Origin: Frankia sp. QA3
GTDB taxonomy: Bacteria > Actinomycetota > Actinomycetes > Frankiales > Frankiaceae
Assembly (NCBI RefSeq): GCF_000262465.1
Contig: NZ_CM001489.1
Coordinates: forward strand, 2,476,597 to 2,540,596
Direction of reading: 5' to 3'
DNA length: 64,000 bases
Each line of letters starts with the position of its first letter. Within the stretch, counting starts at the first letter, position 1. The position numbers and the translations under genes are program-made. The notes beneath the pieces were generated by a model that saw only the letters and a program-made list of their open reading frames with translations, made no database searches and was not told where the DNA came from. Shown here piece by piece: positions 30,417-58,700 of the stretch.

Positions 30417-30418
30417 GT

Positions 30419-35395: not shown

Positions 35396-36696
35396 GGCTG
35401 CTCCCCGTGGCCGAGGATGGGCTGCTCAAGCCGCTGCCCGGACTTCGAGGGCACCGGGGGAGCAGTCCCGGTGGGCTGTCCGTGCCGGACACGGACGCGC
35501 CACAGATGGACCCCGGGCGTCGGTCGCCACCGGTCGACCTCGTCCACGACGGTCAGCAGGCCCGCGACGACAAGCTCGGCGGCGGCGGCACGGGCGAGCG
35601 CGGGCAGCCGACCGACGTAGGACGCGGCCCATCGCGGCAGCGCCGCGCGCCAGCGCTCCAGCATGGCCACGATCTCTGCGAGGAGCAGGTCGGTGGCAGG
35701 CTCCGGTCGTTTTGGCAACTCGGCGAGCAGCGCGAGGGCCGCCTGCCGTTCGGTGCGACGGCCCTGAGGGAAGTCCGTTGCGGCGCCGGACGGATCAATG
35801 ATCTCCCACCAGTCCCGTCGGACGGTGGCGACGAGCCCGAGGGCCGCGACGACGGCGAGCGCGCGTTCCCGGCCGGCCGATGTCATCAGGTAGCCGACTG
35901 GACCGGGATCATCACCTGGGTCAGTCGACGGGTCGTCCACCACCCGGCGCAGCGCGGTCAACCTTCGTCCTTCGACGCTGCTCAGCCGGTCGGCGACCGT
36001 GGCCAAATCGGCGTCCGGTAGTGAGGGGGCACTGAGCGCGGCGATGTGTCCGTCGACCGGACGACCGCTAAGACCCAGCAACGATGGTGACAGCGACGCG
36101 AACTTCGTCGACAGCCGCTCCCGGTCGGCGGCGATGAATACGTCGACATTCTCATCGGCGACGGCCAGGTCGAGATCGGAGTCGACCGAGATCTCGCCTT
36201 CCGCCACCAGCAGCTTGAGCGCGTCGACGATGTCCTGGCGGTCCTGCTGGGCCTCGCGCTTACTCACGCCGTCGCTGGCGACGACGCGAAAGCGCGGCAG
36301 CCGTCCAGTCGGCGCCTCCGCGGCGCAGACCTGCGCCACCGCCTGCAACAATTCCCGCAGGGTGATCCGGGGCCGACGCCATAGCTGCTCACACACCAAC
36401 GCGACGAGTACAAGAACCTTCGCGGAGGCGAGTCCGCCTTGCCGGTCGGCGCGGACCAGTCGCGGTCCGCGGTCCCCCGGCGCGTCGTCACGTCGCTTGT
36501 GCAGCCGCGCGAGCCCGGCCACCTCCCGCACGTCCAACTCCCAGCCCAGCTCGCGGCGGAAGAACTCGACCAGCTCACGGCGCCCCCGCAGCACGGCGCG
36601 GTACCGGCCCGGGTCGTCCACAGCCGTGACGCGGCAGGTCCTGGTCAGGTACAGGGCGGCTTCGGCAACGTCCGGGTCCAGCGGCCGCGCGCTCAC
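35392..36696 (-). CDS. jetB: Wadjet JetB-like protein (DUF2398/TIGR02678)
   Basis: 434 residues from a GTG that overlaps the stop of the preceding gene (GTGA). It reads as the DUF2398 family: ALYLTRTCRVTAVDDPGRY, ELVEFFRRELGWELDVREV, ASAKVLVLVALVCEQLWRRP, and a C-terminal HLWRVRVRHGQP. Two winged-helix regions are likely, one being VDALKLLVAEGEISVDSD. In Wadjet complexes this subunit is the kite-like partner bridging kleisin and SMC. The order DUF2397-DUF2398-SMC-DUF2399 is the conserved one for this family set, usually placed in Wadjet type II. Confidence 0.85.
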   Translation of the reverse strand: MSARPLDPDVAEAALYLTRTCRVTAVDDPGRYRAVLRGRRELVEFFRRELGWELDVREVAGLARLHKRRDDAPGDRGPRLVRADRQGGLASAKVLVLVALVCEQLWRRPRITLRELLQAVAQVCAAEAPTGRLPRFRVVASDGVSKREAQQDRQDIVDALKLLVAEGEISVDSDLDLAVADENVDVFIAADRERLSTKFASLSPSLLGLSGRPVDGHIAALSAPSLPDADLATVADRLSSVEGRRLTALRRVVDDPSTDPGDDPGPVGYLMTSAGRERALAVVAALGLVATVRRDWWEIIDPSGAATDFPQGRRTERQAALALLAELPKRPEPATDLLLAEIVAMLERWRAALPRWAASYVGRLPALARAAAAELVVAGLLTVVDEVDRWRPTPGVHLWRVRVRHGQPTGTAPPVPSKSGQRLEQPILGHGEQP

Positions 36697-38249
36697 GCGG
36701 CACCACCGGCGGCGCGGGCCGTGGCCGTGGCCTCGGCGCTGGAGCTTTCGGTAGCCGTGACGGTGACACGCAGGTCCGGGCCGGTCAGGTCGCCCTCCGC
36801 GAGATGAACCGTAACCCTTCGTTCGGGAGATACGCGTCGCACTCGCACCAGAACGCTGGCCCCTTCGGCATGGCACTCGCCGTACCCGGTCTTCGAGTCG
36901 ACGCGCTGCACGGCGACCTCGACCGCGGCCAGGAGGATCGCTGCCGCCGCCGACTCCAGGCCCACGAAAAAGGTGAGCGACACCTCGCCTTCGGTGACCA
37001 GAAGCGCGGTCAGCCGCCTCCTGCGTTCGGCGATCGCCGCAGCCTCCTTGAGGGCGGCACTCCGGTCCCGCGTGGAGTCGGGCACCTTTCGCGGACGGCC
37101 ACCGGCCGGCCCGACGCGCTCGTGCTCACGTAGAGTCACCTCGATCTGGTGGCGGGAGGCGCCGGCCGCGGCGACGGTGGCAAAGGCGACATCCTCCTCG
37201 ACGGTCGGGACGGCGGCATGCCAGGACGGCCAGGCCCCGAAGGCCGCCGCGTAGACCCGACGAGTGTCGTCGTCGCTGAGCTGGGCGTGCAGGCTGTAGG
37301 CCAGCTCGCGGAAGTCGGCACCGAGATCGGACCCGCGTCTCAGCGCCGTGTACCGACGGTCGATCGCCACGAGAAGGGTGTGGACTGCGCCGGTGGCGGA
37401 GGTGATCAATCGCTGTACCGAGCCTGCGGGTGCGAACCAGGCCGCCAGATCGGCCAGTCTACGGACCCGCTCGTCGACCCAGTGCTGCTGGTCTCGCGGG
37501 TCGATCAGACCGGCATGAGCCACCGCCGCCTCGGTGACCTGCCGATGGCCCACCTCGGCCAGGTCGACGAGCGCCTGTTCAACACGACGCAACGCACGGC
37601 CGTACTCGCGCGGGAACTGGCGAAGGGCCTCGACAATGCGGTCGCGGTTGTCGCCGAAAAGCTGGTCGTCGGTGACGTCCGACTGCACCATACGTCCGAG
37701 CGACGCATAGAAGTCGGCAGTGACGCGCTGCAGCTCCTCGATACGAGTGCGAACGTCATTGAGGTCCCCGGGTAGCAGTCCGTGGTCGCCGTTGACGTGC
37801 TCCAACAAGGCCCGCACCGTACGTTCGACGCCGTCCAGCAGCCGGTTCGGCAGCTGGAGGGCACGTCGCGAATCCACGACCGCGCTACGCACGGCCGCGA
37901 CCACGGCGCGCCCGGTTCGGGTCAGCGCCCAGGCCTCCTGCCGACGGACCACCGCGTCCAGACCCGAGTTCAGCGCAGCATAGTCGCGGAAAGGCTCCAC
38001 GAGGTGGACTGTCGTCAGATGGTCGAGGGCGTCCCGCAGCTCGAGATCGGTCAAAGGGTCGTGGTAACCAACCTGGCGAATCCGGGCAATGATATCGCTC
38101 AGGGTGGACATCGGCGCCCGCGTCGACAGCTCCTCCAACGAGGCGAGCAACGCGGTGTTCCGCTCACGGGCAAGATCCTCAGGCTGCCCGAAGCAACGCC
38201 AGACGACCGGATCGATATCCTGCCACCACAACCGTGGCTCGCCGCTCAT
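36693..38249 (-). CDS. jetA: Wadjet JetA-like protein (DUF2397/TIGR02677)
   Basis: 518 residues. I start at the ATG at 38249, after a G-rich site, although the frame stays open to 38396. Typical of DUF2397: an N-terminal winged-helix region (LSDIIARIRQVGYHDPLTDL), a long helical middle (QRVTADFYASLGRMVQSD), and a C-terminal part with RSAALKEAAAIAERRRRLTA. In Wadjet complexes JetA is the kleisin that links the SMC heads. It is the first gene of the operon, so the promoter should lie at 38250-38450. The end is Ala/Thr-rich and overlaps the start of the next gene. Confidence 0.85.
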   Translation of the reverse strand: MSGEPRLWWQDIDPVVWRCFGQPEDLARERNTALLASLEELSTRAPMSTLSDIIARIRQVGYHDPLTDLELRDALDHLTTVHLVEPFRDYAALNSGLDAVVRRQEAWALTRTGRAVVAAVRSAVVDSRRALQLPNRLLDGVERTVRALLEHVNGDHGLLPGDLNDVRTRIEELQRVTADFYASLGRMVQSDVTDDQLFGDNRDRIVEALRQFPREYGRALRRVEQALVDLAEVGHRQVTEAAVAHAGLIDPRDQQHWVDERVRRLADLAAWFAPAGSVQRLITSATGAVHTLLVAIDRRYTALRRGSDLGADFRELAYSLHAQLSDDDTRRVYAAAFGAWPSWHAAVPTVEEDVAFATVAAAGASRHQIEVTLREHERVGPAGGRPRKVPDSTRDRSAALKEAAAIAERRRRLTALLVTEGEVSLTFFVGLESAAAAILLAAVEVAVQRVDSKTGYGECHAEGASVLVRVRRVSPERRVTVHLAEGDLTGPDLRVTVTATESSSAEATATARAAGGAA

Positions 38250-38429
38250 TCGCCACCCCCAGCAAACGGTCCTTGGACAAGTCTCTCCGACCGCACCGAC
38301 AGAACAGCGCTGGGTACCTGAGCCGGCGGGCTGGCGGTCGCCGGCGCGGGCGACACCCGAGAACTGGACGTCCTGATCTTCTGACCGGGCTGGCACTCGG
38401 GCCGTTCAGGTGGCGAGCAGCACCCGCTT

Positions 38430-41840: not shown

Positions 41841-42318
41841 CAAGCAGCTTTTCCGGAACCCTGCCGCGCGCCCGCCATGACAAAGCTGTCAAATGTGGGC
41901 GGATTGCCAATCGGTGCCGGAACTGGGACGGCGACGGCAAACTCTGGCCGCCCGTCCCGACGGCTGCCTCGCAGCAACATCACGGACGCAGCCATAAATG
42001 GATGACATAGTTGACAGTGGTCGAAGACCCCGATTAGTATTCGTATCGTCGCTTCAGAGAAATGTTGAACCTGCAGCGTCAAGGTGCACCGAGAAGGCGC
42101 CGAAAATCGGCGATAGAAGTATTACGTTGCCACCAGCACAGCGGAGCCGTCTTGTTCGTCAATCCAGCGGAACGTCCCCGATCGGCCGCACGGTCGAGAC
42201 GCGCCGACGCCTGCCGCCCCGACGCGGGAAGCGTCCTCGTGTCGGCCTGAAAAACCTACCGCACCCTTCGGGGCGCCGGGTGTGAAGAAAAACACCGGTT
42301 CAAGTGAAAAGGAAGTCG
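41841..42318. other. Upstream region of the biosynthetic cluster
   Basis: About 480 bases between the broken SCO6745 gene and the radical SAM gene. No convincing gene is seen. G/C content drops around 42000-42130, where a strong promoter-like pair lies (42011-42040). The message would have a leader of about 270 bases, long enough for control elements, but I recognise no riboswitch. Confidence 0.5.
42011..42040 (+). promoter_or_regulatory. Strong sigma70-like promoter of the biosynthetic cluster
   Basis: TTGACA (42011-42016) is followed after 18 bases by TAGTAT (42035-42040). The -35 is perfect and the -10 differs from TATAAT at two positions, an unusually good match in such G/C-rich DNA. It points at the radical SAM gene and is the only clear promoter before five closely packed genes. 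Confidence 0.6.
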
Positions 42319-43368
42319 ATGTCCCTACCGCTCGACGAATTCCTCGGTGGACTTTACCGCACCTTCGGCCCTCCGAAGACCATGGGCGAATCGGCGCCCG
42401 CCTCCGACCGCCCCCACTTCTTCCTGCATCGCAATTTCCTCGGCGAACAGGACCTCGCGATCCTGTTCAACACCAAACGCTGCCGCTACCAGTGCAAGTT
42501 CTGCGCCCTGCCGTTCAAGTCGTCGCGTGAGTGGATTCCGGAGGTTGGGGTTCTCGCCCAGTTCCGGCACGTGCTGGAGGAGAACAGGCATGCTATAGGC
42601 GTCCTGGAGCGCATCAGCATCGCCAACGAGGGTTCCGTCTTCGACGAGACCACCTTCCCCGCGGAAGCACTGACCCAGATCACCGCCGCCATCCGCAGGC
42701 TCCCCCGCGTACGCAAGATCGTGCTGGAGACCCGCCTGGAGTTCCTGCGCGTCGAACGACTCCGGGAGATAGCGGCAGGAAGCGGCAAGCAGCTCGACAT
42801 CCTTACGGGCTTTGAAACCCTCGACGAGGACCTGCGCGAGCGAGTCCTCGGCAAACGCGAGCCACTGGCGGGGTTCCTCCGCGGCCTCGACGTGGTGGCC
42901 GCGGCCGGCTGTGAGCTGACCGCGTACGTCCTGTTCAAGCCGGACCCGGTGATGACCGACGAGGAGGCTTGGGCTGAGGCCGAGGCCTCCATCGACTACC
43001 TGCACGAGCACTGCGCTGCGCGTGGTGTTCCACTGACGATCCGCCTCAACCCGATGTACGTCGCCCGCGGCACGCAGTGGGCCAGCCGCGCGGAGAAGGT
43101 CGAGAACTACCAGCCGCCGCGGCTGTCCGACATCATCGCCCTCGCCGAGCAAAAGCGCGGTCAGGGCATCGCCGTCTATCTCGGCCTGACCTCGGAAGGC
43201 CTGTCGGACGAGGACAGGACGTACCGGGCCAGGGAGGACTTCACCCGTCGGCTCCTCAAGCAGGGCATCGTGATGAACGGCGACGGCTTCGTCAGCTCCC
43301 GCCACCACCTGCTGCCCCTCGTCAAGGCCGACGCTGCGACGTCCGGGCTCGCGCTGGAGAACAGGTGA
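42319..43368 (+). CDS. Radical SAM enzyme (Elp3/TIGR01210-like)
   Basis: 349 residues from an ATG with AAAAGGA five bases upstream; a GTG at 42304 is an alternative. The cluster-binding motif CRYQCKFC (Cys 55, 59, 62) is preceded by ILFNTKR and followed by ALPFKSSREW. The SAM-binding barrel shows ISIANEGSVFDETTFP, a conserved ETRLEFLRVERLREI and ILTGFETLDEDLRERVLGK, which resemble the Elp3-like/TIGR01210 group rather than SPASM peptide-modifying enzymes. No C-terminal SPASM or extra Cys-rich region is seen. Radical SAM enzymes start difficult C-H chemistry with a 5'-deoxyadenosyl radical. As first gene of the NRPS cluster it most likely makes or alters an unusual building block; the reaction is unknown. 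Confidence 0.85.
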   Translation: MSLPLDEFLGGLYRTFGPPKTMGESAPASDRPHFFLHRNFLGEQDLAILFNTKRCRYQCKFCALPFKSSREWIPEVGVLAQFRHVLEENRHAIGVLERISIANEGSVFDETTFPAEALTQITAAIRRLPRVRKIVLETRLEFLRVERLREIAAGSGKQLDILTGFETLDEDLRERVLGKREPLAGFLRGLDVVAAAGCELTAYVLFKPDPVMTDEEAWAEAEASIDYLHEHCAARGVPLTIRLNPMYVARGTQWASRAEKVENYQPPRLSDIIALAEQKRGQGIAVYLGLTSEGLSDEDRTYRAREDFTRRLLKQGIVMNGDGFVSSRHHLLPLVKADAATSGLALENR

Positions 43369-43478
43369 CTGCCCCGGGACCGGTCGTGGACTGCACGGTC
43401 CTGCACACCGGTCCCAGCGGCCCTGCGCTCGTGGAGGCGGTCACGGACGTCAGCGCCGACACCGGCTTCACCCGATGA
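43365..43478 (+). CDS. Possible 37-residue protein coupled to the radical SAM gene
   Basis: A GTG overlaps the radical SAM stop codon (GTGA) and opens 37 codons, with TAPGPVVDCTVLHTGPSGPA in the first half and SADTGFTR at the end. Its own stop overlaps a further ATG (ATGA) that opens only nine codons, ending at 43504. The chained overlaps are typical of actinomycete operons, but the protein has no recognised family. It may be a real small protein, or a remnant of a longer gene lost before the deaminase. Confidence 0.35.
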   Translation: MTAPGPVVDCTVLHTGPSGPALVEAVTDVSADTGFTR

Positions 43479-43584
43479 ACGACGACGGCGCCCAGGGCGA
43501 ATAGGGCAACGGTGCGGCGGCTCCATCGTGAACGCCTCGCGCGCTCCCCGCGCGCTCGCCCGGACGAACGGTTAGGGGAATCCG

Positions 43585-44190
43585 TTGGAAGAAACCTGGA
43601 AGCGCGGCCGTGTGCTCCTGGACGAACTGCGGCCAACGGGCAGCCAGGTGGGCGCCCTGGCCGAGCGGCTCACCGACACCGAGGGCCTGTCCGGTCCCGA
43701 AGACCCGTACGCCTGGCTGTCGTGTGTCCTGGGGCTGTTGTCGGTGAACGAGGGCAACTACGGCGTCGGTGCCGTCGTCGTCCGTGGAGGCGGCATCGTC
43801 GCCGAGGGCCGTAACCGGCTGCTGTGGCCACGCAGGAACACCTCGGCACACGCAGAGGCGGAGGCCCTCGACGTGTTCGAGGCTCGGTTTCCCGAGCTGG
43901 ACTCGGGGCGCGGCACCATCATGTACACCTCGCTGGAGTGCTGCCCGATGTGCACAGTCAGACTCCTCAACTCCGGTGTCCGCACCGTGCGTTACCTTGC
44001 GCCTGACCCGGACGGTGGCATGTGCTCCCGCCTGGACGGGCTGCCACCGTACTGGCGGCGGCTCGCAGCAGGCCGCACCCCCGCGCAGACCTTCGAGCCA
44101 TCCGCCTGTGCACCCGCTCTCTCCCGCATCGCGGCGGACGTCTTCGCCGCGACCGAGACGCAGCTGAACGAGCGGATCGTCCGCTCCTGA
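43585..44190 (+). CDS. CDA-fold deaminase (zinc-dependent)
   Basis: 201 residues from a TTG preceded by AGGGG. The cytidine/guanine-deaminase fold has the zinc and catalytic motif HAEAEAL and the second zinc motif ECCPMCTVRLLNSGV. The usual Pro before the first Cys of PCxxC is replaced by Cys; the zinc ligands His, Cys, Cys and the catalytic Glu are all present. GVGAVVVRGGGIVAEGRNR is the typical substrate-side strand. Relatives deaminate cytosine, guanine or pterin-like rings or free nucleotides; some work in antibiotic pathways. Between a radical SAM enzyme and a carbamoyltransferase, a role in building an unusual amino acid or heterocycle is likely. Substrate not predictable. Confidence 0.8.
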   Translation: MEETWKRGRVLLDELRPTGSQVGALAERLTDTEGLSGPEDPYAWLSCVLGLLSVNEGNYGVGAVVVRGGGIVAEGRNRLLWPRRNTSAHAEAEALDVFEARFPELDSGRGTIMYTSLECCPMCTVRLLNSGVRTVRYLAPDPDGGMCSRLDGLPPYWRRLAAGRTPAQTFEPSACAPALSRIAADVFAATETQLNERIVRS

Positions 44191-44324
44191 CGACCCGTGC
44201 CGGGGTGCACCGTCTGACGGCGGGCGTGCACCTGTCGGCCGGCGGCACGCCCGTACGGCTCGACCCCGTCGAACCGCGCGACCGCGGCCCCGTTCCCACG
44301 ACACCCGAAGGAGCTGAACGCAAC

Positions 44325-45893
44325 GTGCTGATCCTGTCGTTCAAGGAAGGCCATGACGGCGCGATCGCCGCGATCGAGGACGGGAAGCTGCTGTTCTCGC
44401 TGGAGGCCGAGAAGGACTCCTTCCCGCGCTATGACCGGCTCACCGCCGACCTGCTCGTCCGTGCGGGCGACCGCCTCGGCCGCCACCCCGACGTCGTGGC
44501 CGTCGGCGGCTGGGTCAAGGGCTGGCACTCGGTCGAACCCCCCACCCGCACCGGCTACTTCGGCGTCGGCCCCGGCTCGGTGTCCGACGAGGCCGGCACC
44601 TTCTTCGGGCGCCAGACGCGAATCTTCTCCTCCACCCACGAGCGCTCCCACATCATGACCGCCTACGGACTCGGCCCCGTACCCGAGGGCCAGCCCTGCT
44701 ACTGCCTGGTGTGGGAGGGCAACATCGGCTCGTTCTACCGTATCGACGAGTCCGGTCAGGTCACTCACCTCGAGCACGTCCTGACGGACCCGGGCAACAA
44801 GTACGCGTACCTTTTCGCGCTGGCCGACCCCAGATTCCCCGATCTGCCCGGTCACTTCCGCTTCCAGGACGCCGGCAAGCAGATGGCGCTGACGGGTTTC
44901 GCCGAGCGCGGCGCCCTGCTGGCGGAGGAGAAGGAACTCATCGAGTACCTCCTCGACCAGGAAGGCATCCTGCTCGACCTCCCCAAGAACAAGGTGTCCT
45001 GGTCGCCTTACCACAACATCGGCGTCCAGACGCAGGAGTACAAGAACCTGGCGGCGAAGTTTTCCGACGCCATCTTCGCCCGCTTCTACGACTACGCAGC
45101 CGAGCACCTCACCGAGGGGCTGCCGCTGCTCATCTCCGGCGGCTGTGGCCTGAACTGCGAGTGGAACCGGCGCTGGGCGGACTGCGAGCTCTTCCCCTAC
45201 GTCTTCGTGCCGCCGTGCCCCAACGACAGCGGCTCCGCCCTCGGTACGGCCATCGACGCCCAGCTCCACTACACCGGGTCGGCCCGCGTCACGTGGGACG
45301 TGTACGCGGGGGAGGAATTCGTCGAAGACGCCGCCTTCGACCCGTCCCGCTACGACGTCCGCCCCCTCAACCACGCCGAGGTCGCCCGGTACCTGGAACA
45401 GGGCAACCTCATCGGCTGGGTTCAGGGCCGCTACGAGATGGGGCCGCGCGCCCTGGGCAACAGGTCCATCCTCGCCGCGCCCTTCAGCAGGCAGACCCAC
45501 ACCCGGCTCAACGCCGTCAAACAGCGCGAGAGCTACCGCCCCATCGCCCCGATCTGCCTGGAGAGCGACGCCCACCGCTGGTTCTCCGGGGCGCTTCCCG
45601 ACCCGCACATGCTCTACTTCAGCGACGTGCGCACCGATGCGCTCCAAGCCGTCACCCACGTCGACGGAAGTGCCCGCGTCCAGACCGTCACACCCGAGCA
45701 GAATCCCGAGATCGCACGTCTGCTCACCGCGTTCCGCGACCTCACCGGCTACAGCGTGCTGGGTAACACCTCCCTCAACTTCGCCGGCCGCGGCTTCATC
45801 AACCGCACCAGCGACCTCGTCGCCTACGGCGAGCAGCACGGCCTCGACGGCTACGTCGTGAAGGACGAGTTCGTCACGCGGAAGAGCGCATGA
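44325..45893 (+). CDS. Carbamoyltransferase (NodU/CmcH/TobZ family)
   Basis: 522 residues from a GTG; GAAGGAG lies 11 bases upstream. The long frame open back to 44022 is rejected because its extra part is Arg-rich and overlaps the deaminase. The N-terminal Kae1-like domain begins ILSFKEGHDGAIAAIEDG and has the metal motif HERSHIMTAYGLG. Then come LLISGGCGLNCEWN, the signature GRYEMGPRALGNRSILAAPF and the C-terminal YrdC-like GYSVLGNTSLNFAGRGFINR. These enzymes make carbamoyl-adenylate from carbamoyl phosphate and ATP and carbamoylate a hydroxyl group of an antibiotic or Nod factor. The stop overlaps the first NRPS start (ATGA). The product should carry an O-carbamoyl group. Confidence 0.92.
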   Translation: MLILSFKEGHDGAIAAIEDGKLLFSLEAEKDSFPRYDRLTADLLVRAGDRLGRHPDVVAVGGWVKGWHSVEPPTRTGYFGVGPGSVSDEAGTFFGRQTRIFSSTHERSHIMTAYGLGPVPEGQPCYCLVWEGNIGSFYRIDESGQVTHLEHVLTDPGNKYAYLFALADPRFPDLPGHFRFQDAGKQMALTGFAERGALLAEEKELIEYLLDQEGILLDLPKNKVSWSPYHNIGVQTQEYKNLAAKFSDAIFARFYDYAAEHLTEGLPLLISGGCGLNCEWNRRWADCELFPYVFVPPCPNDSGSALGTAIDAQLHYTGSARVTWDVYAGEEFVEDAAFDPSRYDVRPLNHAEVARYLEQGNLIGWVQGRYEMGPRALGNRSILAAPFSRQTHTRLNAVKQRESYRPIAPICLESDAHRWFSGALPDPHMLYFSDVRTDALQAVTHVDGSARVQTVTPEQNPEIARLLTAFRDLTGYSVLGNTSLNFAGRGFINRTSDLVAYGEQHGLDGYVVKDEFVTRKSA

Positions 45894-48800
45894 ACGCACC
45901 GACCCGTCATGCACCCACCGCCGATCGCACCCCCGACCCCACGCACCGTACCTGCCTCGCGCTCGCCCGCGGGCAGGCCGAGCGGACGCCCGACGCCGTG
46001 GCCGTGATCTGCGTGCGCCAGGGCCGCACCCACCGCGTCACGCACGCCGACCTGCACGCGCGCGCCGACCGGCTCGCCCGCGCGCTGCTGCGCGCCGGCA
46101 TCCGCCGCGGGGAGCCTGTCGCGGTGCTCACCGCGCGCTCCGAGTGGACGGTCTCCAGCCTGCTCGGTGTGCTGTCGGCCGGGGCCGCCTACTTCCCACT
46201 CACTACCGAATACCCCGCAGAACGCCTTCGGCTCCTGCTCGCCGCCAGCGGCTGTCGCCTCGTCGTCGCCGATGAGGCGGGGCGCCGCGCCGTCCCCGAG
46301 TTCGGCGACGGCGACCTGACCGTCCTCGCGCCCGATCAACCCGGCACCCCAGGACCCGCTCCTGAGGCGGTCCCAGGGCCGGGCGACCTCGCCGCGCTGC
46401 TCTACACCTCCGGTTCCACCGGCCTCCCCAAGGGCGTGCTCATCGAGCACGGCAGCCTCACCAATCTCGTCACCGGCCTGCAGAACATGCTGTACGCGCC
46501 CCTCGGCGGGCGCACCGTCGAGGCCCTGTCGGCGCCCTTCGTCTTCGACGCCGCACTCCAGCAGAGCCTGTCCTGCCTCGTCAACGGCGGCACCCTGCTC
46601 GTCCTCGACGAGCACGACCGGCGCGATCCGCACCGCTTCCTCGAGCTCGTGGCCCGCCACCGCGTCGGTCTCATCAACGTCGTCGCCCCCTTCCTCGCCG
46701 CCCTCGTCGACGTCGGCCTCGGCGACACCCCCACGGCCCTGCGGCACATCGTCACCGGCGGCCAGGCTGTGCCCACCGCCGTGGTGCGCCGGCTCCTCGA
46801 CCGGCCCGCCGGTGGCTCCCTCACCGTGTGGAGCATGTACGGGCCCACCGAGACCACGGTCGACGCCACCTGCCTGCGCGTCGACCGCAGCACCCCCCTC
46901 GACGGCACCACCCTCGGCCTCGGCGCCGCCCTGCAAGGCGTCACCGTCGACGTCAGGGACGAACAGCTGCGCATCCTGCGGCCCGGTGAACCCGGCGAGA
47001 TCTGCATCGGCGGAGCGGGCCTTGCCCGCGGCTACCTCCACCCCGAGCAGGCGGGCAGCACCGGTTTCGTCACCGAGGGCGCGGGCGGCCCGCGCCTGTA
47101 CCGCACCGGCGACCTGGGCCGCCTCACCGACACCGGGGAGCTGGAGTTCCTGGGCCGCGCCGACGACCAGGTGAAGGTGCGCGGTTACCGCGTCGAACCC
47201 GACGAGATCGGCAACGTGCTCGTCTCCTACACAGGCGTCACCGAGGCGGCCGTCGTCGCCGTGCCCGACGGCGCCGGCGACCGCGACCTCGTCGCCTTCT
47301 ACGCGGCCGACGCCCGCGTGGACGACGACGCCCTGCGCCACTACGCCCGCGCCCACCTGCCCCCCTGGATGGTGCCGTCCCGCTTCCTGCGCCGCGCCGA
47401 GCTGCCGCACACCCAGAACGGCAAGGTCGACCGCGCCGCCCTCACCGACGAGGCCACGGCGGCGGCCGGCGGCGCCGAGGCCGTGGCGGCGGCCGGCGGC
47501 GCCGAGGCCGCGCTCGCCGCCCTCGGCGAGCCCGCCGTCACGGGCACCGTCGACGACAAGGAGCTCGCCGCCCTCTTCGGCGTCGTCCTCGGCCGCCCCG
47601 GCCTCGCACCCGACGAGGACTTCCTCACCGCGGGCGGTCACAGCCTCAAGGCCATGCGGCTGGCCAACCGCATCTACGCCCGCTGGGGCATCGCCGTCCC
47701 GCTGCGCACCGTCTACGACCACCCCACCCCCCGCACCCTCGCCCGCGCCCTCGCCCGCGACCTTGGTGCCCTCGGCCCCGACAGCGGCACCGCTCCCGCT
47801 GCACACCTGCCCCGGGCCGAGGACGCCGACGACTACCCCCTGTCGTACGCGCAGCAGCGCATGTGGACCCTCCACCAGCTCGGCGGCTCGCTCGCCTACA
47901 ACGTGCCCGTCGTCATGGACCAGGGCGATCTGGACCGCACGGCACTCGAGGAAGCGCTCGCCGTCGTCGTCGATCGGCACGACAGTCTGCGCACATCCTT
48001 CACCGTGCGCGACGGCGAGCCCCGCCAGATCGTCCACGACCGGATCAGCCTTGCGCGCAGGACCGTCGACGTCTCCGCCGCACCCGCACCTGCCGAGGCC
48101 GCCGAGCAGGTCGTCAGAACGGAGGCGGCCACGCCGTTCGACCTCACCGAGGCGCCGCTCGCCCGCGTCGTCATCGTCCGGCTGTCGGCGGACAGGTGCT
48201 GGCTCGTCCTCACCCTGCACCACATCATCTGCGACGGCTGGTCCATCGTCGTTCTCTCCCGCGATCTCAACGAGGCCTACCGGGCGGCCCGCCGCCGACA
48301 GCCCGCCGTGCTGCCCGAGCTGCCTGCCCGCTACCGCGACTTCGCGGTGTGGGACCGCACCCGCGACGTCGCCGCCCGCGCCCCCGCCTGGCGCGAGCGG
48401 CTCGGCGGCGTCGCCGGCCATCTGCCGCTGCCCGCCGACTCCCGACCCGACGCCGAGGAGGCGTTCCGCGGCGGCACCTGCGCCCGCACCCTCGACCAGG
48501 AGTTGTCCGCCCGGCTGCGTGCGCTCGCCGCCCGCTCCGAGCGCACCCCCGCCGCTGTCTTCCTCGCCCTGCTCGGCTGGCTGCTGCACCGGCTCACGTC
48601 CCTGGAGGACATCTGTGTCGGCATGGGCAGCGCCGCCCGCATCCACCCCGACGTCGAGCACCTCGTCGGCTTCTTCATCAACGTGTTGCCCATCCGGCTC
48701 TTTCCCCGCCCGGACATGGAATTCGACGAGCTGGCCGACCAGGCGTTCACGGCCCTCTCCGCCGCACTCGAACAGCAGGACTGCCCCATCGACGTGGTCG

Positions 48801-49147
48801 TCAGGGACCTCAACCCCCAGCGCACGGCGGGTACCCAGCCCCTGACCAACGTCATGTTCGCCTACCAGAACTTCGCCGACGTCGTCGGACCCGCCCCGGC
48901 TGACCCACCGCCCGGCAGCGGCGCCGGTGGCAAGGCCGACGGGCTCTTCCTCAGCCAGTCGAGGCTGATCGACGTCACCCTCGACACCGCCAAGTTCGAC
49001 CTGACGCTTTACGTCCACGACACCGCCGACGAGTTCCGGGTCGCATTCGAGTACGACGGCCGCCTGTTTCGCCGCAGCACGGTCGAGCGTTACCTGGCCG
49101 CGCTGGAGCGGCTGGCCCGAGCCGTCACAAGGGAGGTCCAGGCGTGA
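45890..49147 (+). CDS. Nonribosomal peptide synthetase, A-T-C
   Basis: 1085 residues. The adenylation domain (about 20-520) has A3 LLYTSGSTGLPKG (~170), A5 MYGPTETTVDATC and A8 ADDQVKVRGYRVEPDEI, with the A10 Lys in HTQNGKVDR. The carrier domain has GGHSLKAM near 580. The condensation domain (~640-1080) has an intact HHIICDGW (~776). Lined up by eye on GrsA, the specificity residues are D-A-Q-N-V-G-M-V-D; this resembles no code I can assign with certainty. It loads the first residue and condenses it with the second NRPS. There is no starter condensation domain, so the first residue keeps a free amine unless modified. An Ala/Gly-rich duplicated linker precedes the carrier. No MbtH-like gene is present. 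Confidence 0.93.
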   Translation: MNAPTRHAPTADRTPDPTHRTCLALARGQAERTPDAVAVICVRQGRTHRVTHADLHARADRLARALLRAGIRRGEPVAVLTARSEWTVSSLLGVLSAGAAYFPLTTEYPAERLRLLLAASGCRLVVADEAGRRAVPEFGDGDLTVLAPDQPGTPGPAPEAVPGPGDLAALLYTSGSTGLPKGVLIEHGSLTNLVTGLQNMLYAPLGGRTVEALSAPFVFDAALQQSLSCLVNGGTLLVLDEHDRRDPHRFLELVARHRVGLINVVAPFLAALVDVGLGDTPTALRHIVTGGQAVPTAVVRRLLDRPAGGSLTVWSMYGPTETTVDATCLRVDRSTPLDGTTLGLGAALQGVTVDVRDEQLRILRPGEPGEICIGGAGLARGYLHPEQAGSTGFVTEGAGGPRLYRTGDLGRLTDTGELEFLGRADDQVKVRGYRVEPDEIGNVLVSYTGVTEAAVVAVPDGAGDRDLVAFYAADARVDDDALRHYARAHLPPWMVPSRFLRRAELPHTQNGKVDRAALTDEATAAAGGAEAVAAAGGAEAALAALGEPAVTGTVDDKELAALFGVVLGRPGLAPDEDFLTAGGHSLKAMRLANRIYARWGIAVPLRTVYDHPTPRTLARALARDLGALGPDSGTAPAAHLPRAEDADDYPLSYAQQRMWTLHQLGGSLAYNVPVVMDQGDLDRTALEEALAVVVDRHDSLRTSFTVRDGEPRQIVHDRISLARRTVDVSAAPAPAEAAEQVVRTEAATPFDLTEAPLARVVIVRLSADRCWLVLTLHHIICDGWSIVVLSRDLNEAYRAARRRQPAVLPELPARYRDFAVWDRTRDVAARAPAWRERLGGVAGHLPLPADSRPDAEEAFRGGTCARTLDQELSARLRALAARSERTPAAVFLALLGWLLHRLTSLEDICVGMGSAARIHPDVEHLVGFFINVLPIRLFPRPDMEFDELADQAFTALSAALEQQDCPIDVVVRDLNPQRTAGTQPLTNVMFAYQNFADVVGPAPADPPPGSGAGGKADGLFLSQSRLIDVTLDTAKFDLTLYVHDTADEFRVAFEYDGRLFRRSTVERYLAALERLARAVTREVQA

Positions 49148-52100
49148 AACTGTCCGACGTGGCTCTGTGGGAGAGCGACGACGAGGCCGCCGGCGCCGAG
49201 CACGACACGAACGACACCGTCCGTCCCTTCCCGCACGACCGTACGGTCGGCGACCTGTTCACCGAGCAGGCCACCGCCACCCCCGACGCCGTGGCCGTCG
49301 TCGACGGCTCCGCCCGCCGCACCTACGCCGAACTCGCCGCCGACGCCGACCGGCTCGCCGGCTTCCTCGTCGATCAGGGCGTCGGCCCCGGTGTCCACGT
49401 CGGGGTCCTGCTGCGACGCTCCTACCCGCTCGTCGTCGCGCTCCTCGCCGTGCTCAAGGCGGGCGGCGCCTACGTGCCGCTCAATCCCGAACTGCCCGAC
49501 GCCCGGCTGTACGCCCTCGTCGGCGACACGGCACCCCGCGTCCTGATCTCCGAACGCTCCCTCATCACGACCTTCAACGACCTCTTCTGGAACAGCCCCG
49601 CGACCAGCGGCGCCATCTGCGTCGACTCCTTCGGCGTCCTCGGCGAACTGGAGCCTGCCGGTGCCAGGATGAGCCTGGAGCTGTGGAACTATGTCGCCGA
49701 CCACGCCGACGACCCCGTCGCTGCCAACGGCTGGCGCAGCCCCTACACCGGCGCCCGCCTCAGCGACGCCACCCTCGACCGGTACGTGCGCGCCACCGCG
49801 AACAAGATCGCCGCCTACCTCTCCCCGGACGCCACCATGCTGGAGATCGGCTGCGGCACCGGCATCACCCTCACCGGCCTCGCCCCCCTCGTGGGCAGGT
49901 ATGTCGGCATCGACCCATCGGCCGGCGTGCTCCGCTGGGCCCGACGCGCCCGCGAGGCCAACGCCCTCGACAACGTCTCCCTGTACGAACTCGCCGCCCT
50001 CGACCTCGACGAACTGCCCGTCGAATCCGCCGGCCCCTTCGACATCGTCGTCTTCAACAGCGTCGTGCAGAGCTTCGGCGGCCTGAACTACCTGCGCACC
50101 GTGCTGGGCGAGGCCATCGCCAGAGTCGGTGACCGCGGCGCCGTCTACCTGGGACACGTGTGGGACGCCGCGCGCCGCGAGGAATTCCTCGCCACCGTGG
50201 CCGCCCGGCACAGGCCCGAACACGGCGGACGCCCCCTGTCCGCCGCCGACGCTCTGTTCATCCCGGCCGCCTTCTTCGAGGACCTTCCCCACCACTTCCC
50301 CGAACTCGTCCGGGTCGAGATCACCCCGATGGCCTTCCACAACGCCGAACTCACCACCTTCGCCTACGACGTTCTCCTCCACGTCGACAGGACGGCATCC
50401 CGCACCGCCACCGCTTCCGCCGCCTCCGCTACCACCGCCACCGCCACCGCCACCGCCGACAAACGCCAGTACGACCGGCGCGCCCTCGACGTCCGTCCGG
50501 CCACCCCGGTGGACGACCGGCACAGCCCCGACGCCGCCGCGTACGTCATCCAGACCTCCGGCTCCACCGGCGTCCCCAAGAGCGTCGAGGTCGGCATGCG
50601 GTCCCTCGTCAACCTGCTGTGGTGGTACACGGACGCCTGCGCCATCGGCCCGGGCACGCGGGTGCTGCAGGTCATCACCTGCGGCTTCGACGCCTCCATC
50701 AAGAACTATCTGGCACCCCTGATCTCCGGCGCCGCCGTCGTCCTCGCCCCCGACACCGCCTACGACCCCCGCGCCCTGCTGGACCTCGTCGCCCGCGAGC
50801 AGGTCACCGTCCTCAACCCCGGTGTCCCCGCCGCGGTCTACCCGCTGGTCGACCTGGCCGCCGCCGACGGCTTCCGCCCCCTGCGCTCGCTGCGCCACCT
50901 CGCACTCGGCGGCGAGACCCCCGACCTCACCCGGTTGCGCCCCTGGCTCGAAGCGGGGGAATGCCGGGCCATCCTGCTCAACATCTACGGGCCCACGGAG
51001 GCCACCGACATCAGCTGCGCCGCCCGGATCGACCCGGCACGGGCCGTGGCCGACTCCTCGCCGGTCCCCATCGGCCGGCCCATCCCCAACGTGCGCGCCT
51101 ACGTCCTCGACAGCCGTCTGATCGAACAGCCGCCCGGCGTCGTCGGCGAACTATGCCTGGCCGGCGTCGGACTGGCCAAGGGCTACGTCGGCGACCCCGC
51201 CCTGACCGCCGAGAAGTTCACCACCGCATCACCGTCCCTTCCCGGTGAGCGCCTCTACCGCACCGGCGACCTCGCCCGCCGCCTCCCCACGGGCGACCTC
51301 GTCGTCGTCGGCCGGGCGGATGCCCAGGTCAAGCTCCTCGGCCACCGGATCGAACTCGGCGAGGTCGAGCAGTGCCTGCGCGCGCTGCCCGGCGTGCGTG
51401 AGGCCGCCGCCGTCCTGCGCCCCGCGCCCGGCACCGATGAACTCCGCCTGTGCGGCTACGTCATCCCCGAACCCGGCGAGGAGCCCGACGCCCTCAGCCT
51501 GCGCGCCGCCCTCGGCCGGGGTCTGCCCGCCGCGGCCGTGCCCTCCGACGTCGTCGTCGTGGACAGCTGGCCCCGCACCCCCAACGGCAAGATCGACCGT
51601 AACGCCCTGCCCGCTCCCGAGCAGGCCCGCCGGGCGGCCGCACGTCCACCCCGGACCGCCACGGAGCGGGTGCTGCTCCCGTTGTGGCGCGAGGTGCTCG
51701 CCGACGACGCCGTCTCCCTCGACGAGAACTTCTTCGTCGCCGGCGGCCACAGCCTCGGTGCCGCGCTGCTGGCCATCCGCATCCGCGAAGTCCTTCGCCG
51801 CGACGTGTCCATCATCGACGTCTACCACGCCCAGACCGCCGCAGCCCTGGCTCGACTCATCGACCAGCGGCCCGCGGCCGACAGCCCGCTCAAGCTGCTG
51901 GCCGACGGCGACGGCGCCACCGTCTACTGCTTCCCGCCCATCGCCGGCTACGCGTGGACGATGGCCGGCTTCGCCCAGCACCTCGGCCTGCGCGTCTACG
52001 GCTTCGACTTCCCCGACGCCGCCGACGCCGCCGACGCCGACACCGCCGACCCCGCAGCCACCGCCGCCGGCCTCATCGCCGCGACCCGAACGAGCGGCCC

Positions 52101-52599
52101 CCGTTTCCTCATCGGCTACTCGGCCGGGGGCGTCCTCGCCGCCGCCACCGCCCTTGCCCTGCAGGCCCGAGGCGAATCCGTCGACGGCCTGGTCCTGCTC
52201 GATTCGGCACCTCCCTCCGGGCGCACCCCGGCCACCGACGACGACGTGGCACAGACGGTCCAGGAGGTCCTCGACGACCCGCGTCTCACGGCGCACGTCC
52301 ACCAGACGGGTGCCGACCGCGTCGCCGACACTGTCGCCCGCTACGCCCGCTGGTACGCCGAGGCGCCCCTGGACGGAACGATCCGCTGTGACCTGCTGCT
52401 GCTCACCGCCTCCGACGGCCACCCCGGCGATGTCACCGGATGGCAGGCCCTCACCACCGGAGACGTCCGTGTCCAGCCCGCCGACGGCAGCCACGCGGAC
52501 CTCCTCTCCGGCACCCACGCGGTCACCAACGCCGGCCCGGTCCGGGCCTGGTTCGCCCAGCGGGCCTGGCTGAACGCACCGCGAGCTGCGGGGTGTTGA
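49144..52599 (+). CDS. Nonribosomal peptide synthetase, A(methyltransferase)-T-TE
   Basis: 1151 residues; its GTG overlaps the stop of the first NRPS. The adenylation domain is interrupted between motifs A2 (LLAVLKAGGAYVPL) and A3 (YVIQTSGSTGVPKS, ~468) by a ~290-residue SAM methyltransferase (MLEIGCGTGITLTG, ~236). After it come A5 IYGPTEATDI, A8 and A10 TPNGKIDRNA. The carrier has VAGGHSLGAA (~864), and the thioesterase (from ~905) has FLIGYSAGGVLAAA. In characterised cases an A2/A3 insertion methylates side chains (TioN-like) and A8/A9 insertions methylate the backbone amine. Specificity residues read by eye are D-A-K-N-L-G-I-D-I, unassigned. It should add a methylated residue and release a dipeptide or cyclised product. 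Confidence 0.93.
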   Translation: MKLSDVALWESDDEAAGAEHDTNDTVRPFPHDRTVGDLFTEQATATPDAVAVVDGSARRTYAELAADADRLAGFLVDQGVGPGVHVGVLLRRSYPLVVALLAVLKAGGAYVPLNPELPDARLYALVGDTAPRVLISERSLITTFNDLFWNSPATSGAICVDSFGVLGELEPAGARMSLELWNYVADHADDPVAANGWRSPYTGARLSDATLDRYVRATANKIAAYLSPDATMLEIGCGTGITLTGLAPLVGRYVGIDPSAGVLRWARRAREANALDNVSLYELAALDLDELPVESAGPFDIVVFNSVVQSFGGLNYLRTVLGEAIARVGDRGAVYLGHVWDAARREEFLATVAARHRPEHGGRPLSAADALFIPAAFFEDLPHHFPELVRVEITPMAFHNAELTTFAYDVLLHVDRTASRTATASAASATTATATATADKRQYDRRALDVRPATPVDDRHSPDAAAYVIQTSGSTGVPKSVEVGMRSLVNLLWWYTDACAIGPGTRVLQVITCGFDASIKNYLAPLISGAAVVLAPDTAYDPRALLDLVAREQVTVLNPGVPAAVYPLVDLAAADGFRPLRSLRHLALGGETPDLTRLRPWLEAGECRAILLNIYGPTEATDISCAARIDPARAVADSSPVPIGRPIPNVRAYVLDSRLIEQPPGVVGELCLAGVGLAKGYVGDPALTAEKFTTASPSLPGERLYRTGDLARRLPTGDLVVVGRADAQVKLLGHRIELGEVEQCLRALPGVREAAAVLRPAPGTDELRLCGYVIPEPGEEPDALSLRAALGRGLPAAAVPSDVVVVDSWPRTPNGKIDRNALPAPEQARRAAARPPRTATERVLLPLWREVLADDAVSLDENFFVAGGHSLGAALLAIRIREVLRRDVSIIDVYHAQTAAALARLIDQRPAADSPLKLLADGDGATVYCFPPIAGYAWTMAGFAQHLGLRVYGFDFPDAADAADADTADPAATAAGLIAATRTSGPRFLIGYSAGGVLAAATALALQARGESVDGLVLLDSAPPSGRTPATDDDVAQTVQEVLDDPRLTAHVHQTGADRVADTVARYARWYAEAPLDGTIRCDLLLLTASDGHPGDVTGWQALTTGDVRVQPADGSHADLLSGTHAVTNAGPVRAWFAQRAWLNAPRAAGC

Positions 52600-52634
52600 C
52601 CGGCTGTGCAGAGGGCTTCGCATAATGGCTGCCT

Positions 52635-55438: not shown

Positions 55439-55780
55439 ATGTCACGTCGACGAGTTGGGGCGGTGGGCGGCGGCGTCACCTTCGTGATGGCAGGCGCGGC
55501 GGGGGCGGCAGGTGGTCAGCTGGGTGACAAGGCACTGTGGGCGTGGGTATGCCTGCTGGTTGCGCTGCTTGTCGGCGGGGTGGCCACGTCCTGGGTGGCA
55601 TGGCGGACCACGGATGCCGATCCTGTGCGACCGTCGGGCGACACAGGTCCGGATGGTCCGCCCTCACCGGATGGTCCGCGGATGGGCGATGTGCGGGTGG
55701 GTGACATCGTGGCGCCCGGCGGTCAGGCTGCGGGGATTAACTACGGGCAGTTAATCCAAGGCCAGGGCGGCCATTCATGA
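55439..55780 (+). CDS. Small membrane protein coupled to STAND NTPase
   Basis: 113 residues from an ATG with GGGGG five bases upstream; the frame open back to 54722 is rejected because it runs through transposon debris. A Gly/Ala-rich hydrophobic stretch lies at ~7-27 and a clear membrane helix at ~30-52 (ALWAWVCLLVALLVGGVATS). A Pro/Asp-rich cytoplasmic or outer tail follows, ending in VGDIVAPGGQAAGINYG. The STAND protein encoded next has VGDVSAPGGGQGIGVNYG near its own N-terminus. The stop overlaps that gene's ATG (ATGA), so the two are co-translated. I know no family for it. The shared motif suggests the two proteins associate, possibly with this one as the membrane effector. Confidence 0.65.
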   Translation: MSRRRVGAVGGGVTFVMAGAAGAAGGQLGDKALWAWVCLLVALLVGGVATSWVAWRTTDADPVRPSGDTGPDGPPSPDGPRMGDVRVGDIVAPGGQAAGINYGQLIQGQGGHS

Positions 55781-58700
55781 ACCACAAGCCCGAGGTGACT
55801 CCCGCGGTTCCCGGTGCTGCGTCGTTATCCGACGACAAGGTTCGCGTCATGGTAGGTGATGTGTCCGCGCCTGGCGGCGGGCAAGGGATCGGCGTCAACT
55901 ACGGTACCGCCCTGCACCAGTATTTCCAGGGCTCGTTACGGTTACTGCGGCAGGCGACGATCGCCCTCGATCCATTACCGGGCGATCTACGCTTGGTTAG
56001 TCCGGAGGATCCGGATAATCCTGTGGGCCTCTTCCAGGGCAGGACTCAGCTGATCGAGAAGATCGACGCTTTCCTCGCCCTGTGCGTACAGCGTCGGCGC
56101 GGTGGTTTCCTCCTGGTCGAGGCCGAGGCGGGAATGGGAAAGTCGGCGCTGGCGGCCTACCTGGCGTTCACAAGGGCGTGGCCGGCGCACTTCACCCGGC
56201 TTGCTGACGGCCGCGTGCCGGAAGCGGCCCGGCGGAACCTGGCCGCCCAGCTCATCGCCCGGTGGAAGCTGCAGGACGCGGCACCGGGTGGGATGCTCCC
56301 GGAGAACTCGGAAAGTACCGGGTGGTTGCATGGTCGGTTGTGTGATGCAGCTAGAGCACGAGACCGAGGCGAGCCGGGGGCGGCGGTGGTGCTGCTCGTC
56401 GATGGGCTGGATGAAGCGCCTCTCGCCGCAGGTGGCGATCTGCCGTTGGGCCTACCACCGAACCTGCCGGCGGGCACGGTGATCGTCGCGACGACACGGC
56501 CGAAGTCGGTACCGATCCCAGTGGGGTCGAGGGTGGTGGAACGGATCGACGTGGAGAGCGAGGCGAACCGGTCCGATCTGCTGGCCTATCTGACCTCGGT
56601 CACCGCACGCGATCCGTATCTGGCTGGCCCCCTGGCCAGAGCCGGGACGGATCCAAGCCGGTTCTGCCGGACCTTGTTGCATCGGTCGGGAGGCGTGTGG
56701 ATCTACGCTCTGTCCGTCCTCGACCAGATTCGTGATCAAGGCTGGTCGCCCGACGAGGTTGATCGGCTGCCCATCGGGTTGGCGGCGTACTACGCGGACA
56801 ATATGCGCCGCTGGCGGGATGAACTCGGTGAGGACGGCTGGGAAACCGTCGGGTTACCGGTTCTGGCAACGCTCGCCGCGATCCGGGAACCCACCTCCGC
56901 AGCGAAGATCGCCGCCTGGTCCGATGTTCCTCCGGGTAAGGCGCGCGGCGTTTTGCGGGAGATGATGAAACCGTTCCTTGCAGTGCGCCGGGGCGGTGAT
57001 CCCGATCTGTACTTCCCACGACATCAAAGCCTGCGCGAATTCTGCGAAGGCACGACTCTGCTCGACCACGATGTGGACCGGCTGCGGGAGCTGGCCTACG
57101 ATCTGGCCGCCGCGACCCGCGCAGCGCATCGCCGTATTTCCATGGCTCTGGAGCCCTCGAGCCCTGTCGGCCAGCGACGTTGGAACTCTGCAGACCATTA
57201 CGCGCAGACCTATCTTGCCGAGCATGCCGCTCTCAGTTACCGACTCGATGACCTGATTATGGATCCGGAGTTCGGAATCTTTGTCGGCATTTCCTCCCTG
57301 CTTCGTCAACGGCGGCATCTGACCGCAGAGCAGGCGACGAAGGCGCTCGCCGCGCTGGAACTCGCGGCTGGTCATGGCGAGGATCAGGCGTCGCGTCTTC
57401 GGTGGATCGAGGTGTCCGCCCGAAAGATGCGCGCCCACGCTCTTGCCGACAATGCCGCATCCCTCCTCGACAGATCATCATGGCGTGTCACACGAGCCAT
57501 GTGGAAAGGCAGCAGCCACCGCAACCTCACCGGCCATACCGGCGGGGTGCGCGCGTTGGCCGTGGTGCCGCTCACTGATGGCCGGGTGCTACTTGCCTCC
57601 GCCGGCGACGACGATTCCGTGCGGCTGTGGGATCCGACGAGCGGTACACAGATCAGTGAACTCACCGGCCATGCCGCCGCGGTGAATGCGCTGGCCGTGG
57701 TGCCCCTCGCCGATGGCCGGATACTACTTGCCTCCGCCGGCGACGACGATTCCGTGCGGCTGTGGGATCCGACGAGCGGTACACAGATCAGTGAACTCAC
57801 CGGGCCATGCCGCCGCGGTGAATGCGCTGGCCGTGGTGCCCCTCGCCGATGGCCGGATACTACTTGCCTCCGCCGGCAACGACGATTCCGTGCGGCTGTG
57901 GGATCCGACGAGCGGTACACAGATCAGTGAACTCACCGGCCACACTGGCATCGTGTTTGCGCTGGCTGTGGTGCCGCTTGCTGATGGCCGGGTGCTGCTT
58001 GCCTCCGCCGGCGACGACGATTCCGTGCGGTTATGGGATCCGGCTACTGGTGCGCGGACCGGTGAGATCACCGGCCATGCCGCCGCGGTGAATGCGCTGG
58101 CCGTGGTGCCTCTCGCCGATGGCCGGGTGCTGCTTGCCTCCGCCGGCGACGACGATTCCGTGCGGTTATGGGATCCAATGACCGGAACACGAACTCTCAT
58201 TCTCACTGGCCACGCTGGAGCAGTTCGCGCGTTGGCGGTGCTGCCGCTCGCTGACGGCGGCGTGGTGCTTGCCTCGGCGGATGACGACGATTCGGTGCGG
58301 CTATGGGACCCAACGGCCGGAACACTGATCGGCGAACTTTCCGGCCACACCGACTGGGTGCACGCGTTGGCGGTGGTGCCGCTCGCGGACAGCCGGGTGG
58401 TGCTTGCCTCGGCCGGCGACGACGATTCGGTGCGGCTGTGGGATCCAACCGCCGGAACATCGGAACTCGCCGGCCACACCGACGGAGTGAACGCGATGGC
58501 AGTTGCACCGCTTGCCGACGGCCGGGTGTTGCTTGCCTCCGCCGGTGCCGATCGGTCGGTGCGGCTGTGGGAGCCGACAACGGGCGCACAGATCAACGAA
58601 CTCACCGGCCACACCGGCGTGGTGTTCGCGTTGGCGGTGGTGCCACTTGCCGACGGCCGGGTGTTGCTTGCCTCCGCCGGTGCCGATCGGTCGGTGCGGC

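Follow-up and report, generated by a model that had tools for sequence, protein, structure and literature searches.

A minimal five-gene nonribosomal peptide synthetase operon in Frankia sp. QA3 belongs to a rare cluster family and may make a methylated, carbamoylated dipeptide

By description, the nearest architecture that we found in the literature for the nonribosomal peptide synthetase (NRPS) operon reported here, five genes in a 64-kb window (the whole stretch of DNA analysed) of the Frankia sp. QA3 genome (7,590,853 bases in one contig), is that of the amb cluster. The accessible part of its account describes five genes, among them one for AmbB, with adenylation (A), thiolation (T) and condensation (C) domains, and one for AmbE, which includes A, methyltransferase (MT), T and thioesterase (TE) domains, and AMB is proposed there to come from a glutamate remodelled while it stands between two alanines (PMC4357302). 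The Frankia operon also has five genes, with an A-T-C protein and an A-MT-T-TE protein, a likeness drawn from domain order; where amb, in that account, has two oxygenases and a transporter, it has a radical S-adenosylmethionine (SAM) enzyme, a deaminase and a carbamoyltransferase.

Other described systems resemble single parts of the operon. The radical SAM protein is distantly homologous, over the radical SAM core, to RaSEA of archaeosine synthesis, an enzyme that cleaves a C–N bond and frees an amidine. RaSEA converts preQ0-lysine in tRNA, a 7-deazaguanine derivative, to archaeosine (PMC11298593, available in part), whereas the window's protein sits in an NRPS context and scores far under the family cut-off (94.3 bits against TIGR01210, cut-off 212.15), outside the family. 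Methyltransferases inserted at the A2–A3 site of adenylation domains, the position also seen in the second synthetase here, carry out S-methylation (TioN, MarQ) or N-methylation (TtcC, TtmB) in the accessible part of a published account (PMC11355689). As that site serves both side-chain and backbone methylation, the methyl group of the product could lie at either position. Members of known function in the YqcI/YcgG family hydroxylate a guanidine N–H (PMC12866846, PMC10849742, each available in part), and the argolaphos, chalkophomycin, guanitoxin and miharamycins pathways use such a guanidine N-hydroxylase. A YqcI/YcgG gene likewise accompanies 7 of the 10 clusters described below; the likeness lies in that one family, and the Frankia genome, unlike those pathways, has no member of it. 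Saxitoxin synthesis, which also uses a deaminase and a carbamoyltransferase, may offer a further parallel.

Open reading frame (ORF) calling placed the five genes at 42304–52599, all on the + strand, and each received a Pfam assignment, in agreement with a prior reading of this DNA made without database searches (hereafter the sequence-only reading). That reading had the cluster begin at 42011, a position that merely follows the preceding ORF. The 'tight spacing' it described holds for the last three genes, which overlap by 4 nt at both the carbamoyltransferase/NRPS1 and NRPS1/NRPS2 boundaries, but not for the first two gaps, of 216 nt (radical SAM to deaminase) and 134 nt (deaminase to carbamoyltransferase). 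The start of the carbamoyltransferase is the conserved one, set by comparison with the Parafrankia orthologue. The features are as follows.

42011–42303, +: upstream stretch from the end of the preceding ORF (42010) to the radical SAM start; putative promoter region
42304–43368, +: radical SAM protein, 354 aa, CxxxCxxC, distant RaSEA relative (PF04055, 31.3 bits; orthologue alignment)
43585–44190, +: CDA-fold zinc deaminase, 201 aa, TTG start, zinc motifs HAE and CPMC (PF00383, 45.8 bits)
44325–45893, +: carbamoyltransferase of NodU/TobZ type, 522 aa, HERSH (PF16861, 185 bits; PF02543, 67.5 bits)
45890–49147, +: NRPS1, A-T-C, 1085 aa (Pfam AMP-binding, PP-binding and Condensation)
45974–47425, +: NRPS1 adenylation domain, code DAQNVGMVDK (Pfam, alignment)
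47561–47752, +: NRPS1 thiolation domain, GGHSL (Pfam, motif)
47825–49132, +: NRPS1 condensation domain, HHIICDG (Pfam, motif)
49144–52599, +: NRPS2, A-MT-T-TE, 1151 aa (Pfam)
49231–49551, +: NRPS2 adenylation domain part 1, A1–A2 (residues 30–136 align to a solved A domain)
49774–50169, +: embedded SAM methyltransferase core between A2 and A3, LEIGCGTG (PF08242/PF13489, alignment)
50455–51591, +: NRPS2 adenylation domain part 2, A3–A10, code DAKNAGIDIK (Pfam, alignment)
51670–51861, +: NRPS2 thiolation domain, GGHSL (Pfam, motif)
51919–52524, +: NRPS2 thioesterase, GYSAG and GSHADLL (Pfam, motif)
52579–52634, no strand: right-hand junction, just before a RecD2 gene (blastn against four relatives)

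We regard it as an evenly balanced proposition that these genes form a complete minimal NRPS operon for a methylated, carbamoylated dipeptide, or a peptide-masked amino acid, containing a guanidine- or amide-bearing residue. The domain order given by the sequence-only reading, A-T-C followed by A-MT-T-TE with the methyltransferase embedded, was borne out by Pfam and alignment. In NRPS2, the AMP-binding match is split around methyltransferase models at residues 211–342 and followed by PP-binding and Thioesterase matches, and a solved A domain aligns at residues 30–136 and again from about 460; the methyltransferase thus interrupts a single adenylation domain between A2 and A3. All domain types expected of an NRPS cluster (A, T, C and release) are present, with intact motifs. 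None of the five ORFs has an internal stop codon, and the catalytic motifs are intact. As that reading also held, a Pfam search of the five proteins found no C domain ahead of the first A domain and no epimerase, and MbtH is absent from the cluster: the sole MbtH match in the Frankia genome (150 of 175 candidates scored) lies far off at 590831–590983. MbtH was not found in 3 of the 10 cluster genomes and therefore seems not to be needed.

The tailoring enzymes are assigned with unequal precision. The carbamoyltransferase has both PF02543 and PF16861 above their gathering scores and shares these domains and the HxxxH motif with NodU, TobZ and GdmN; its nearest solved relatives are novobiocin carbamoyltransferase, 7xb6, TobZ and GdmN, and it differs from the NodU equivalog, against which it scores 251 bits with a cut-off of 1000. 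The deaminase has the zinc motifs of the CDA fold, H(A)E and CxxC, conserved in 10 of 10 orthologues, and its model (predicted local distance difference test score (pLDDT) 86) resembles TadA and guanine deaminases. CxxxCxxC was matched in 9 of 10 radical SAM orthologues, the Parafrankia protein being missed owing to an ambiguous residue (X), and a profile built from nine orthologues matched queuine lyase weakly (E = 0.0028), with one worse match besides. A distant homologue, about 40% identical (L042:1337–5003), adjoins a gene for a pyruvoyl-dependent arginine decarboxylase (PF01862) and also lies near another radical SAM gene. A second one (L043:7927–12772) stands beside Asp/Asn hydroxylase, YcaO and sulfotransferase genes, possibly a separate peptide-modification cluster.

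A rare cluster family has these five genes as its conserved core. In a pattern-based scan of the genomes of 84,980 species with the radical SAM protein as query, at least 8 loci were recovered, and all five genes were present at 7 of the 8 scanned loci: in the actinobacteria Parafrankia colletiae, Saccharopolyspora spinosa and Actinokineospora auranticolor, and beyond Actinomycetota in an Acidobacteriaceae metagenome-assembled genome, the cyanobacterium Waterburya agarophytonicola, Azospirillum doebereinerae and Candidatus Paraburkholderia calva. Two further complete clusters, in genomes G760 (Pseudonocardiaceae, the S. spinosa family) and G830 (the Ca. P. calva family), bring the total to 10 with the window's own, in Actinomycetota, Acidobacteriota, a cyanobacterium and Pseudomonadota. 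Recurrence of the complete set in 10 genomes makes it more than a chance association, and the 'orphan' label of the sequence-only reading does not fit a core found in four phyla. Each cluster has a HERSH-bearing carbamoyltransferase orthologue, and the NRPS motif patterns were matched in 10 of 10 clusters except for the thioesterase histidine pattern (9 of 10; G830 unmatched). Streptomyces milbemycinicus was considered as a further cluster and dropped: at its locus (L019) the other four genes are absent and a transposase gene is nearby, and the best carbamoyltransferase match in its genome is 41% over half the protein.

Within each lineage the radical SAM gene is scarce. Counting the genome that started each search, a high-scoring copy was found in 2 of 35 genomes of the order and 2 of 393 of the class, in each case Frankia and Parafrankia (a third match in the order, in G013, was weak, E = 9.5e-5, and not counted), in 2 of 82 of the Azospirillum family (one a distant homologue), 4 of 297 of the S. 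spinosa family (one distant), 2 of 299 of the Ca. P. calva family and 1 of 291 of the Waterburya class. Searches of plasmids by tblastn gave no match to the radical SAM protein and 117 records for NRPS2, none covering at least 80% of the query among the 30 matches listed. Consistent with the earlier statement that the gene set matches no known pathway, searches of the open-access literature turned up no account of a cluster made up of these five genes, and no such cluster was named in the titles and opening lines of abstracts on leaf-nodule symbionts. The core occurs in two plant symbionts, the nitrogen-fixing Frankia and the leaf-nodule symbiont Ca. Paraburkholderia calva. Having been kept through its spread over four phyla, the product is probably useful to its makers. 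The G830 cluster (L040/L041), complete and accompanied by the N-hydroxylase-type gene, is carried in a genome of about 2.3 Mb (2.25-Mb contig); that a genome of this small size has retained it is a hint that it matters.

Substrate choice appears to be constant across the family. Specificity codes were read in 8 of the 10 clusters, all except G760 and G830. Five of these share the NRPS1 code DAQNVGMVDK, which is altered to T at position 8 in Waterburya, to V at position 2 in Azospirillum, and to V at position 2 with I at position 8 in Ca. P. calva; that of NRPS2 is DAKNAGIDIK in seven and DAKNAGVDIK in Ca. P. calva. As the pockets are nearly fixed while the NRPS proteins outside Actinomycetota are only 35–41% identical to the window's, the codes argue for the same two amino acids being used throughout. 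The code first read by eye for NRPS1, DAQNVGMVD, came out the same on alignment; that for NRPS2, DAKNLGIDI, has A and not L at its fifth position. The NRPS1 code agrees with glutamine codes at most positions and matches arginine codes at several. Our best guess is that the substrates would be of amide or guanidine type (glutamine-, citrulline- or arginine-like), since the codes are near-invariant over phyla and a YqcI/YcgG gene accompanies most clusters; the arginine decarboxylase gene beside the L042 homologue is a further point in favour. TAN-1057, which carries methyl, carbamoyl and guanidine groups, was considered as the product and set aside; the parts of the literature available named no gene cluster for it.

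The clusters differ in what accompanies the core. In seven of the ten, the core is joined by a gene of guanidine N-hydroxylase type (YqcI/YcgG, PF08892), overlooked in the sequence-only reading and lacking in the Frankia copy, and by a gene for a pentraxin- or laminin-G-like protein. PF08892 occurs once in each of these seven genomes, always inside the cluster (7 of the 9 cluster genomes other than Frankia), and was not found genome-wide in Frankia, Parafrankia or G760; the pentraxin-like gene was sought in the fetched cluster regions, and further genes could be missed in Parafrankia and Ca. P. calva, where the contigs stop near the cluster. In S. spinosa and Actinokineospora both genes lie between those for the deaminase and the carbamoyltransferase, which in the other three actinobacterial clusters are separated by 134 to about 260 nt. 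A joint tree of four proteins (2,596 columns; carbamoyltransferase left out) placed G760 as sister to S. spinosa and Frankia as sister to Parafrankia, each with support of 1.000, whereas the position of Actinokineospora varied among single-gene trees. Because of these groupings, two independent losses of the pair are the simplest account, and one loss with one regain may be the alternative. The Frankia copy is the minimal form of the family. Other additions recur less regularly, in a survey that took in 18 proteins flanking the related clusters. S. spinosa, Actinokineospora and G760 have a B12-radical SAM protein, and Azospirillum has a distant member of this type; two kinds of 2-oxoglutarate oxygenase occur, one in 3 clusters and the other in 2, and a single cluster has an ATP-grasp protein. 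A Pfam-less gene common to Azospirillum, G830 and Waterburya seems to be in pieces in Ca. P. calva (L018:4009–5150), which fits genome erosion.

In the pathway that we propose, NRPS1 would load a first amino acid and couple it, through its C domain, to a second on NRPS2, where the embedded methyltransferase would methylate that second residue before the thioesterase released the dipeptide. The radical SAM enzyme may carry out radical chemistry beside a side-chain C–N bond, the zinc deaminase may hydrolyse a C–NH2 of amidine or amino-heterocycle type, and the carbamoyltransferase could cap a hydroxyl, less probably a nitrogen, as a carbamate. Frankia keeps the carbamoyltransferase and has no N-hydroxylase; the carbamoyl acceptor therefore need not be an N-OH. 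The sequence-only reading had predicted a methylated and O-carbamoylated product: the embedded methyltransferase favours the first part, and the 'O-' goes too far, even though the solved relatives are O-carbamoyltransferases. The unusual residue that it ascribed to the radical SAM and deaminase enzymes is plausible and was stated too strongly. Overall, the gene set it observed is confirmed and its interpretation partly supported.

By analogy, the product would likely serve as a small antimetabolite or in chemical defence. A bolder and doubtful extension is that the family makes a new class of arginine-derived peptide antimetabolites, in which a RaSEA-like C–N cleavage or rearrangement would be followed by deaminase conversion of an amidine or guanidine to a carbonyl, with N-hydroxylation, by the YqcI/YcgG and pentraxin-like proteins, as an optional module. 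To our knowledge, neither a radical SAM step at a guanidino C–N bond nor amidine or guanidine deamination by a CDA-type enzyme is familiar from NRPS pathways. A RaSEA-like radical SAM protein with a CDA-type deaminase, in most relatives joined by a guanidine N-hydroxylase-type gene, suggests enzyme chemistry open to direct testing, and at about 10 kb the Frankia five-gene form is small enough to be expressed whole. What emerges is a rare biosynthetic core of five genes that seems not to have been characterised before, with substrates that appear fixed over four phyla.

Sequence comparison makes recent lateral transfer the most likely origin of the Frankia copy. None of the 12 other genomes searched in the genus, several of them fragmented, yielded the radical SAM gene, and in blastn against four relatives shared DNA resumes at the 3' end of NRPS2 in three of the stretches compared (52579, 52587 and 52613) and at 52675 in the fourth; no left-hand junction was found in the same comparison. 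Synonymous divergence (dS) between the Frankia and Parafrankia copies is 0.05–0.09, and the ratio of nonsynonymous to synonymous divergence (dN/dS) over the five genes is 0.14–0.30 against S. spinosa and 0.36–0.47 against Parafrankia, consistent with purifying selection overall and possible recent relaxation.

Several results weigh against a complete operon acting on a guanidine or amide residue. Neither code has a confidently assignable specificity, and as the Frankia genome lacks YqcI/YcgG, the guanidine argument is borrowed from relatives. Searched by its single sequence against solved structures, the radical SAM protein had no match, a fold search with its AlphaFold model, of modest confidence (mean pLDDT 71), returned only generic radical SAM matches, and the L043 homologue has no arginine-related gene among its scanned neighbours. 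The eighth scanned locus, in S. milbemycinicus, carries a radical SAM gene 86% identical without the other four genes, and the higher dN/dS of the Frankia–Parafrankia pair could mean relaxed selection. This last point leads to the reading of the Frankia copy as a remnant without a product, acquired laterally and now in decay, to which the lack of the two genes found in most clusters and the patchy occurrence within the order also lend some weight. We consider it improbable: catalytic motifs are intact, the frames are free of internal stops and the 4-nt overlaps are kept, and the Pseudonocardiaceae genome, which branches elsewhere in the cluster tree, likewise keeps the five genes without the two extras.

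The other two rivals accept a working operon and change its product. In an AMB-like pathway the dipeptide would be only a scaffold, the residue on NRPS2 being converted while carrier-bound to a small, toxic amino acid and that on NRPS1 serving as a cleavable mask. The AmbB/NRPS1 match in domain order, the remodelling proposed for AMB and a 2-oxoglutarate oxygenase gene in 5 of the 9 related clusters, where the amb cluster as described has two, are in keeping with this idea, which we hold to be unlikely though far from negligible: the extra C and second T domains described for AmbE (A, MT, two T, C and TE) are missing from NRPS2, the five genes include no oxygenase and no peptidase, and the accessible account of amb names no radical SAM enzyme, deaminase or carbamoyltransferase (PMC4357302). 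Distinctly improbable, in our judgement, is a nucleobase-type product, in which the substrate of the radical SAM enzyme and deaminase would be a heterocycle resembling a purine or deazapurine, subsequently attached to the NRPS or loaded by it. Queuine lyase, like RaSEA, acts on a 7-deazaguanine derivative, so the two distant relationships of the radical SAM protein point the same way, as does the resemblance of the deaminase model to TadA and guanine deaminases. However, the CDA fold serves many substrates, no base-making gene lies among the five core genes or the 18 scanned neighbouring proteins, and the YqcI/YcgG members of known function act, in the accessible accounts, on arginine-type guanidines. 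The methylated, carbamoylated dipeptide with a guanidine or amide residue remains our preferred reading.

Elsewhere in the window, four adjacent genes on the − strand (29196–38396) match PADLOC JetD2, JetC2, JetB2 and JetA2, a Wadjet-type defence system (type II by label) about 4 kb upstream of the operon. On the + strand, at 55777–59275, a gene for a WD40-repeat protein with a weak AAA match seems to be split over two overlapping frames near 57.7–57.9 kb, possibly by a frameshift. Outside the window, the other main NRPS locus of the genome (G000:C1:592925–618549), with an open frame of more than 7,000 aa, lies near the sole MbtH match.

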